Shown piece by piece: positions 44,412-48,062 of a stretch of DNA of 64,000 bases. The DNA comes from Planctomycetia bacterium. GTDB lineage: Bacteria > Planctomycetota > Planctomycetia > Pirellulales > PNKZ01. Location: positions 1 through 64,000 of the forward strand of contig JAIOPP010000118.1 in the NCBI GenBank assembly GCA_021413845.1, read 5' to 3'. The notes under the pieces were generated by a model, which was not told where the DNA came from, searched no databases, and worked only from the letters and a program-made list of their open reading frames with translations. A program made the translations under genes and the position numbers. Numbering within the stretch: the first letter of the stretch is position 1; each line of letters starts with the position of its first letter.

Positions 44412-45776
44412 CTACGTGCGCACTTCCGGATGGATCCATGGTGCGCGGTAGGGGCGGCGTAGGCGTTCGTTGGCTTTTTCGTCGCCGCGGATGTTTCCTG
44501 CTGCGATGTCCCAGTGGAGCGTGCGGCCGAGGTCGGACGAGAGATTGGCGAGGATGCAGCTGGCGGTCGAGATGTGGCCTTGCTCGATGTCGGCGACCGG
44601 CTTGCCGCGCGTGTCGATCGCTTGCAGCCAATCGCGCATGTGGCCGCGAATCGCCGGCGCGACTTGCTTCTCCAAGTCCTTCTCGTCGCGGTCTTCGGGA
44701 TACTTATCCAGCTCCATCACGACGTCGCGATGGATCGGGTCTCCCTTGTTCGGAATGAAATCGTAGCTGTTCACGCTGGCCTTCAGCGTTCCCTGATCGC
44801 CGTAGAGGGTCGCGCCCCAAGGATATTGCGGATCGGGCGCGCTCCCCCAAGTGCGATGTTGCCACACTACCTCGACGTCGCCGAAGTCGAACACGGCCGA
44901 TTGCGTATCGCTGATGTTCGCCTTGCTTTGCTTGTCGACTAAGATGCCGCCGCTCGAACTCACCGACTTCGGCCAGCCGAGGTCGAGCATCCAGCGCACC
45001 GTGTCGAGCATATGGATACACATATCGCCGACGATGCCGTTGCCGTATTCCTGGAAGTAGCGCCAACGACGCGGATGTACGAGGCTGTTGAACGGCCGCA
45101 TTGGGGCCGGACCGGTCCACATCTCGTAATCGAGATTCGCCGGCGGAGCGCTGTCGGGCACGCTCTGATTCGAGCGCATGTGATAGTAGCAGTAAATCTC
45201 GACGAGCCCGACTTTGCCGAGCTTGCCCGGCCGCACGATTTGGTCGCGAGCTTCGATCAGGTGCGGTGTGCTGCGGCGCTGCGTGCCGACTTGCACGACC
45301 CGGCCCGTGCGCCGCGCGGCGGCGAGCATCGCTTGCCCTTCGACGATATCGACGCTGATCGGCTTCTGCACGTAGACATCGGCCCCGGCCTCGACCGCCG
45401 CGATCATCGGCAGCGCGTGCCAATGGTCGGGCGTGGCGATCAGCACCATCTCGGCGTCTTTCTCCGCCAGCAGTTCACGATAGTCGGCATGCGTGCGCGG
45501 GCGCTTCTTCGAGACCTGTCGCGCGGCGACGATGTCCGCGGCTTCGGCGAGCATTTTCGAATCGACATCGCACATCGCCACGACTTCGACCGGCTCGATC
45601 TGCAAGAGCCGCAACAGATCGCACTTGCCGTACCAGCCGCAACCGATGAGGGCGACCCGACGGGGCTTGCGCTCCCGAGCGACATCGGCATGCGCGAGCG
45701 AAGAGAGGGCGGAGAACGAAGTGAGCGAAGTCAGCGGCGCCGCAGCGCCGGCCTGAAGAAACGTGCGACGATCCAT
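44412..45776 (-). CDS. Tat-exported Gfo/Idh/MocA oxidoreductase
   Basis: A 454-residue protein. The N terminus MDRRTFLQAGAAAPL is a twin-arginine signal. The NAD-binding domain begins VALIGCGWYGKCD, and the family motif appears as VQKPISVD. The C-terminal beta domain contains GNGIVGDMCIHMLD. These proteins oxidise or rearrange sugars and are exported in large numbers in planctomycetes. The start at 45776 removes a long upstream artefact. The substrate is unknown. Confidence 0.9.
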   Translation of the reverse strand: MDRRTFLQAGAAAPLTSLTSFSALSSLAHADVARERKPRRVALIGCGWYGKCDLLRLLQIEPVEVVAMCDVDSKMLAEAADIVAARQVSKKRPRTHADYRELLAEKDAEMVLIATPDHWHALPMIAAVEAGADVYVQKPISVDIVEGQAMLAAARRTGRVVQVGTQRRSTPHLIEARDQIVRPGKLGKVGLVEIYCYYHMRSNQSVPDSAPPANLDYEMWTGPAPMRPFNSLVHPRRWRYFQEYGNGIVGDMCIHMLDTVRWMLDLGWPKSVSSSGGILVDKQSKANISDTQSAVFDFGDVEVVWQHRTWGSAPDPQYPWGATLYGDQGTLKASVNSYDFIPNKGDPIHRDVVMELDKYPEDRDEKDLEKQVAPAIRGHMRDWLQAIDTRGKPVADIEQGHISTASCILANLSSDLGRTLHWDIAAGNIRGDEKANERLRRPYRAPWIHPEVRT

Positions 45777-45985: not shown

Positions 45986-46867
45986 CTATTCCGGATTGCT
46001 GGCCGCGTTGTTGCCGCCGTCGCGGATGAGAGGTTCCATCGTCTTCGTGTTGCGTTCGACGGCGAGCACCACGGTTCGTTGTTCCAAGCCGTTGGCGCTG
46101 GCGGCCACGGCCGGAATCACTTGCCGAGCGTTCGGCATGCTGTAGCGCACCGTGAACGTGCCGTCGGGCCGAAGCTTGATCGGCTCGTTTTGCAACGTCA
46201 CTTTCGCATCCGGATCGGTCTTGCCGAACACGATCAACTCGGCGTCGATCTCGAAATGGAACGGACGTCGGCCGCCGAGGAGGCCATCGACGCCGGGACC
46301 GAAGCGCGAGATCAGCGACGAGCCCATCGGGCGGCGCAACCGCTCTTCGAACACTTCTTGCAGCTCGACGCTGCCGTTGCCGTCGCCGTCGGCACCGCCG
46401 CTTTGAGCGTAGATCCGCTCGAAGTCGGAAGCGATGTCGCTCCAGTTTTGATCGATGTCGTCTTTGCTGCCGGCGCGCGGCGTCGTCACGACGTTGCTGC
46501 GGGCCAGCACATAGAACCGGCCGCTCGTCGTGAGGTAGCCGATGTCGACGCGGTAGCTCTTCGGCGGATCGGGAACATCGACATACCAATTGTTGACGCC
46601 GCCGTGGATCTCAATATCGCGCAGGGGAGTTTCCACGGCGCTGGTCGTGCCGCCGTCGGTCGCTTCGACGAGACGGAGGATCGGCTTCACGGTGTGCCAC
46701 TCTTGGGCGAGGGCTGCTTGAGCCCGTTCGACGCCGTTGCGGGACAGCTCCCAATGGACTTGAAGCCAGTAGGGGTCGCGCACCATGACGACGAGGCGGT
46801 CTTTAATGACCTTCGGAATGCCGCGACCGTTTTTGCCGGCCGCCATTTGCACCGAGAGGTACGCCAA
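45986..46867 (-). CDS. DUF4912 domain protein, downstream part after in-frame TAG
   Basis: A 293-residue open frame beginning at a TTG. It holds the DUF4912 core: KDRLVVMVRDPYWLQVHWELS, then VEATDGG and VNNWYVDVPDPPKSYRVDIGYL, with RFGPGVDG near the end. The frame also continues upstream, through K-L-G-V-I-R, to a TAG at 46910-46912. On its other side is the Rho-N part in the same frame. The two would be one protein in typical planctomycete homologues. Independent translation from the TTG is possible. Function of DUF4912 is unknown. Confidence 0.75.
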   Translation of the reverse strand: MAYLSVQMAAGKNGRGIPKVIKDRLVVMVRDPYWLQVHWELSRNGVERAQAALAQEWHTVKPILRLVEATDGGTTSAVETPLRDIEIHGGVNNWYVDVPDPPKSYRVDIGYLTTSGRFYVLARSNVVTTPRAGSKDDIDQNWSDIASDFERIYAQSGGADGDGNGSVELQEVFEERLRRPMGSSLISRFGPGVDGLLGGRRPFHFEIDAELIVFGKTDPDAKVTLQNEPIKLRPDGTFTVRYSMPNARQVIPAVAASANGLEQRTVVLAVERNTKTMEPLIRDGGNNAASNPE

Positions 46868-46909
46868 GTCTTTCTTGATCGTCGAGGCCGTACGAATGAC
46901 GCCGAGCTT

Positions 46910-47470
46910 CTAGGCGCCTTCCGAAGGGGGCTGCGGAGCCGGTGCCGGACGACGCGGGGCAGGCGCGGGGCGAGCGATGGCGGGGCGCGTCACGTGAGCC
47001 GTCGTGGAAGCCGCGGTCTTAGCGTTCGGCTGCGAGGCCGCAGGCTTCGAGGTCGCGATCGGTCGGCCGGCGACGGGGGCTCGCGAGGCGACGCCGTTCT
47101 GCACGTTCGTCGTGTGCGTTGCGCCGTTGGTGGAAGAACCGTTGCGAGCCGAGCCGTTGGCAGCGATGCCGGAAGTGCCGTTCGTGCGTGCGGCGGGGGC
47201 TTGCGCCGGCTGCAGGGGCTTGCTCGCGGCAGCCGTTCGCAAGGGTGTGGTTCGCGAAGGCGACGTGCGTGAAGTCGATGTTCGCGACTGCGTTGCCGTC
47301 GAGCGAACCGCGGTCTGCGCCTTCGACTTGTTGGCCTTTAGGCGAACTGCTTTGAGCAGCGCCTTGATCAGTTGGTCTTTGCGCATCGAATGCCAGCCGG
47401 GGACACGGCGATTCTTCGCCATTTCGGCTAGGTCTTTGGCGCTATAGCTATTGAGAGTTTCGGCGGTCAT
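46910..47470 (-). CDS. Rho-N/SAP-like N-terminal part of the DUF4912 gene
   Basis: A 186-residue open frame ending in TAG. Residues 1-50 (SYSAKDLAEMAKNRRVPGWH, then MRKDQLIKALLKA) form a Rho termination factor N-terminal domain, often nucleic-acid-binding. The rest is Ala/Pro/Thr/Ser-rich and probably disordered. The start is ATG 47470. The following DUF4912 frame is in the same phase only 14 codons later. This is either two adjacent proteins or one gene interrupted by an amber codon. Confidence 0.7.
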   Translation of the reverse strand: MTAETLNSYSAKDLAEMAKNRRVPGWHSMRKDQLIKALLKAVRLKANKSKAQTAVRSTATQSRTSTSRTSPSRTTPLRTAAASKPLQPAQAPAARTNGTSGIAANGSARNGSSTNGATHTTNVQNGVASRAPVAGRPIATSKPAASQPNAKTAASTTAHVTRPAIARPAPAPRRPAPAPQPPSEGA

Positions 47471-48062
47471 CAGGCGGCGTCTCCCGACCAGGGGCTCCGC
47501 ACACTCCGTAGCCGGAGTACGTGCGCAAGCCGATGCCATGAATTACGTCGTCCCTGACCGTCCGACGGAGATGCCGTACCACGCCGACTGTCCTAGTCGG
47601 TCGCAGTCGAACCGAGCGAAGGTTGGGGAAACCTTGACGCGCGATTCCAAGACAAGTCCGTTTATGCCGAGTTTCAAACCGCGAGCCGACAGAGGATGCC
47701 GGTCGCAATCCGAAGTGCATCACTTCCCTCGTAGGCGGGACTCCTCGCGACGTCGGGCTAGTGCCCTGTCGCGACAAGCACGAGAGAGGAAAGAAAAGCA
47801 GTTTTCCGAGTTTAACCGAAACTGTGCCCGGTTGCAATCTGCGACCGCTCTAAAGCGGTAGTTTTCGTGAAGGAACCGTGACAGGCCTATCCCATTCGTG
47901 ACAAAAGAGTTAGTCGAGTTTTTGCGATCTGTTTGCCGGAACGACAGGGTCTTACAAATCGGCAATTTTTACCTTGGAAACACTCTCTCAAAATGAATTC
48001 GTACCGCGCGAACGATTTCCATAAACCATTGTCTTTACTTGTGTTACAGATTACAAAAAACT
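47471..48062. other. A/T-rising intergenic region before the atp promoter
   Basis: About 590 bases with no convincing gene. Composition shifts to A/T-rich from about 47870. No promoter for the DUF4912 gene was assigned. Several short frames exist, but they lack family features. Confidence 0.4.

Follow-up and report, generated by a model that had tools for sequence, protein, structure and literature searches.

An in-frame TAG between the Rho_N and DUF4912 domains

On its minus strand, the window (i.e., the whole 64,000-nt stretch of DNA analysed here) carries the two parts of a Rho_N-DUF4912 gene, read in the same frame and separated by an in-frame TAG codon:

46913..47470, minus strand: upstream fragment of 186 codons, with the Rho_N domain and a low-complexity linker (Pfam Rho_N match; start aligned to congeners)
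46910..46912, minus strand: in-frame TAG, codon 187 (CGT, AAG, CGC and AAG in four close relatives)
46868..46909, minus strand: 14 sense codons from the stop to the TTG (amino-acid identity to congeners 0.79, 0.64 and 0.36)
46865..46867, minus strand: TTG encoding the Leu of a conserved K-D-L motif, a possible restart codon with no clear Shine-Dalgarno sequence
46844..46846, minus strand: in-frame ATG, a possible restart codon (Leu, Leu and Ile in congeners)
45986..46867, minus strand: downstream fragment, the DUF4912 frame, 293 codons from the TTG
46451-46804, within the downstream fragment: DUF4912 domain match
45988-45986, minus strand: TAG, the DUF4912 fragment's own terminator

In the open reading frame list the two parts stand as separate entries, 45986-46867 (293 aa, TTG start) and 46910-47539 (209 aa, first ATG as start). 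A start at 47470 was upheld by the homologous protein of the congeners, which opens at the same Met-Thr-Ala. The minus-strand junction reads GAA GGC GCC TAG(46912-46910) AAG CTC GGC GTC ATT CGT ACG GCC TCG ACG and continues ATC AAG AAA GAC TTG(46867-46865) GCG TAC without a change of frame, confirming the original prediction of an in-frame TAG followed by 14 sense codons to the TTG. A frameshift is ruled out: one frame runs throughout, and the DNA alignment shows no insertion or deletion at the stop; the protein alignment has a two-codon gap just upstream of the stop that leaves the frame unaffected. Chance juxtaposition of two frames was likewise ruled out, as the congeners' single open frames match the joined frame across both domains.

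The upstream half matches Rho_N (PF07498; E = 3.4e-6, 27.4 bits against a Pfam cut-off of 24.9) and the downstream half DUF4912 (PF16258; E = 1e-33, 116.5 bits against a cut-off of 29.4). If membership in the family is taken as both domains in one uninterrupted frame, the TAG at 46910-46912 places the window gene outside it. The genome (7.08 Mb in 167 contigs, 99.6% complete) holds no second DUF4912 copy anywhere, i.e., the gene is single-copy.

The neighbourhood is kept in the two congeners compared, with ATP synthase genes on one side and a PP-loop ATPase-like gene, an MFS transporter and ThiC on the other. On our reading of the gene table, 14 genes correspond between the window and one relative (G003), the DUF4912 gene alone being interrupted. 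In the window, a Gfo/Idh/MocA oxidoreductase gene (44412-45740, minus strand) separates the DUF4912 gene from the PP-loop ATPase-like gene; in G001, G002, G003 and G006 these two are adjacent, without the oxidoreductase gene. The predicted model of the DUF4912 domain has low confidence (mean pLDDT 58.8) and retrieved generic beta-sandwich matches with low TM-scores in a fold search, so we claim no function for it. No relative was found among solved structures, and a search of viral contigs returned nothing. In the literature searched, one paper names DUF4912.

The gene is conserved across the order, normally in one piece

We gathered 113 loci, 100 of them distinct, and set aside five distinct loci without Rho_N in which a contig end cuts upstream of DUF4912. 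The remaining 95 comprised the window and 94 informative relatives, in which Rho_N was scored by profile. Both domains lie in one frame in 93 of these 94, and in all three congeners, which bears out the statement in the original prediction that they normally form one protein. The sole case in which Rho_N is not recognisable in the DUF4912 frame, a Gemmataceae MAG from Baikal (L048), was rejected as a split gene, since Rho_N is simply absent. A single open frame spans both domains in the closest genomes, three congeneric and one from the same family, and the three congeners carry Arg or Lys at the TAG position. The same stop was seen in none of the congeners or other relatives examined, and close relatives with two separate genes at this place, the finding that was to overturn the original prediction, were absent among the 94 informative relatives.

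An order-wide search detected the gene in 358 of 396 genomes (243 of the 252 good ones). Among the 150 matches listed, the only frames shorter than 364 codons were that of the window and those of three genomes in which the match sits at, or close to, the start of a contig. None of the three was retained as a split relative: G014 (L022) and G130 (L167, L111) look short because the contig ends there, and G349 is probably another contig-edge case, its match starting 43 bases into its contig. The Rho_N-linker-DUF4912 gene is conserved order-wide and normally in one piece, and the split appears, as far as can be seen from these sequences, private to the window genome.

Both halves were under selection until very recently

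A branch codon model was fitted to the window and its three congeners. On the window branch the DUF4912 half evolved with an omega of 0.039 (background 0.037), neutrality being rejected (2dlnL 49), and the Rho_N half with an omega of 0.099 vs 0.033, a non-significant difference (2dlnL 2.09). Control genes (three ATP synthase stretches and the PP-loop gene) gave omega values of 0.064 and 0.067. For the fraction of the window branch over which the DUF4912 half could have been neutral, 95% upper bounds were 0.010-0.020 with branch lengths scaled from 0.7 to 1.4, a rough bound given that branch lengths were otherwise fixed and synonymous sites are near saturation. If the stop freed the downstream half from selection, it would have done so within, at most, about the last 1-2% of the branch (again roughly). 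The idea that the downstream part has escaped long neutral decay, part of the original prediction, stands on these values.

The 14 codons past the stop also appear coding (upper neutral fraction 0.225), although with L005 as the focal branch full neutrality is not excluded, reflecting poor power. The window sequence breaks one column conserved at 93% or more, the mean being 1.56 per sequence. A Gly22 to Arg replacement in Rho_N was rejected as a sign of decay, both because the column, G in 82 of 94 rows, is K, N or A in 11 others and because the Rho_N omega is not significantly raised. Together, these results show both halves under selection until the very recent past. As in a pseudogene, an intact orthologue in close relatives is paired with an apparent disabling mutation here; relaxed selection after the lesion was not detected, a combination that fits only a very recent lesion.

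Sequence and predicted structure around the stop

The four close relatives have Arg or Lys codons at position 187, and AAG, as seen in L004 and L006, is one base away from TAG. Across the order this column holds Arg or Lys in 38 of 63 letters; the junction table covers 64 of the 99 distinct relatives, the other 35 having been missed by a strict anchor pattern and left out. In the predicted model of an intact congener protein (mean pLDDT 65.5), Arg150 is the residue that corresponds to the TAG; it sits within a helix (146-163) in a block of pLDDT 77-84, and the disordered linker spans about 57-127 with pLDDT mostly below 50. The stop would fall in this predicted helix, not in the disordered linker. 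Shortly after it, the TTG at 46867 aligns with the Leu of the conserved K-D-L motif. The in-frame ATG at 46844-46846 (minus strand), 21 codons past the TAG, is private to the window genome and may be a restart codon or due to chance.

At sites constant in the four relatives, the window protein has 14 unique replacements, compared with 6, 4 and 7 in the three congeners, an excess due in part to its longer branch (2.3 vs 1.3-1.8 neutral substitutions per site). Three of these replacements, at codons 185, 190 and 197, are close to the stop. The clustering is mild and was noticed post hoc; it hints at a segment whose constraint had already loosened, and slightly favours a true event over an isolated base error.

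Origin of the stop

Of the four explanations that the original prediction left open, a very recent mutation or an error emerged as favoured, and a long-standing split and stop-codon readthrough found no support. We tentatively prefer, at somewhat below an even chance, a single very recent amber nonsense substitution, either fixed in the window genome or a polymorphism caught by the assembly. The base call would then be real, as we infer, and ribosomes starting at 47470 would stop at 46910, yielding a 186-residue Rho_N-plus-linker fragment. The DUF4912 domain would presumably be lost or strongly reduced, being either not made at all or made in traces, whether by leaky reading of the TAG or by a weak restart at TTG 46867 or ATG 46846. 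In favour of this reading are the single frame in relatives, the single copy in the genome, the one base between AAG and TAG, the lack of downstream decay, the mild cluster of replacements near the stop, the absence of a clear restart signal and of an amber tRNA among those found, an intact release factor 1, and the short life that Belinky et al. 2021 (PMC7918605) ascribe to most such stops. Against this reading, a lone one-base difference in a draft could equally be an error, and a fixed loss would be unusual because the gene is near-universal in the order and strongly constrained.

The main rival is that one-base error, in the consensus or assembly, or a strain mixture in the draft, with the organism's own gene ordinary and uninterrupted. 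We consider this possible, if on the unlikely side. It agrees with a draft of 167 contigs, with the full conservation of both halves and undetectable neutral decay, and with the one base that can separate TAG from AAG. Speaking against it, at codon 185, and again at codon 190, the replacement is one base or more away from the codon of every close relative, over and above the stop itself, so the segment has truly diverged. A comparison of 464 kb of the window genome with 500 kb of one congener bears on the same point: among 29 matched non-overlapping frames, 24 of which cover at least 80% of the query, two besides the DUF4912 gene had a stop within the alignment, and both were discarded, one as an antisense shadow of a 528-codon frame and the other as lying at the C-terminus (relative position 0.98). 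Genuine interior stops were absent from the other 28 frames, so the draft is not riddled with false stops, albeit on a small sample.

A different outcome would be that the stop cuts the fused protein while both halves are still made, by restart or by a leaky TAG, as a gene fission or expression valve. We judge this rather unlikely; if true, the Rho_N and DUF4912 domains could act apart or at a new ratio. For a young functional split in particular, in which Rho_N fragment and DUF4912 domain have become separate products, the second starting at TTG 46867 or ATG 46846 after termination at the TAG, one may cite purifying selection on both halves on the window branch, a complete DUF4912 match (46451-46804) downstream of both possible restart codons, the private ATG and some loosening near the stop. 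It is nonetheless improbable, as no relative has two genes at the locus, the stop lies in the predicted helix instead of the linker, and the K-D codons just before the TTG, which would be untranslated, have been kept. Moreover, the longest match to the Shine-Dalgarno consensus is 3 bases before the TTG or ATG, vs 4 at 47470, and a consensus scan found no promoter-like site for the second frame. The lack of a two-gene relative and of a clear start signal, together with the position of the stop inside the predicted helix, likewise argues against a long-standing natural split with re-initiation.

Readthrough, whereby ribosomes decode the TAG often enough to be useful and produce the complete two-domain protein at a reduced level, is the most doubtful account, and we regard it as very unlikely. 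Protein-like constraint persists before and after the stop and extends to the 14 codons that follow it, and Belinky et al. 2021 (PMC7918605) argue, in the available part of their article, that a stop of this kind may reduce a gene's expression without inactivating it. Yet release factor 1 (RF1) is intact, TAG terminates the DUF4912 gene itself as well as the following Gfo/Idh gene, RNA folding 3′ of the stop is unremarkable (z -1.21), and the stop is absent from the relatives examined. The search for an amber suppressor came up empty, no CTA anticodon occurring among the 46 tRNAs found, an incomplete set. This set is without a Trp tRNA, Leu-CAG and Ser-TGA, which were missed by the search or by the draft assembly.

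None of the four explanations amounts to a new kind of system, and a new mode of gene reading is most likely not involved. If the stop is real, the window genome would offer a naturally occurring knock-out or knock-down for a planctomycete protein that is near-universal and of unknown function, helping to show whether cells need that protein and whether its two domains have to stay together in one chain.

Comparison with known systems

The window gene resembles the Planctomycetota Rho_N-DUF4912 proteins (PF07498 + PF16258) in that both domains, their order and the helix preceding DUF4912 are recognisable, and differs from them by the TAG between the domains, found in the window genome alone. 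As in termination-reinitiation (PMC6728339), two frames lie on the same strand and ribosomes could restart past the stop. That article, in the portion available, centres on overlapping stop/start pairs (ATGA, TGATG), whereas here 42 nt separate the stop from the first likely restart codon, which is in the same frame and lacks a clear Shine-Dalgarno sequence; the authors of that article state there that they are aware of no systematic study of restart distance and expect efficiency to fall with distance.

A parallel in kind is given by Belinky et al. 2021 (PMC7918605), by whose account, in the text accessible to us, in-frame stops are widespread in conserved genes of bacteria and mostly do not last long. 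The window shares with their cases one in-frame stop and flanking sequence still under purifying selection. Their survey, according to the same text, required the same stop in at least two genomes, unlike the window stop, which is known from one genome only and may therefore be an artefact. Where decoding is concerned there is nothing unusual about it: that work already documents isolated in-frame stops of recent origin in conserved genes of bacteria.
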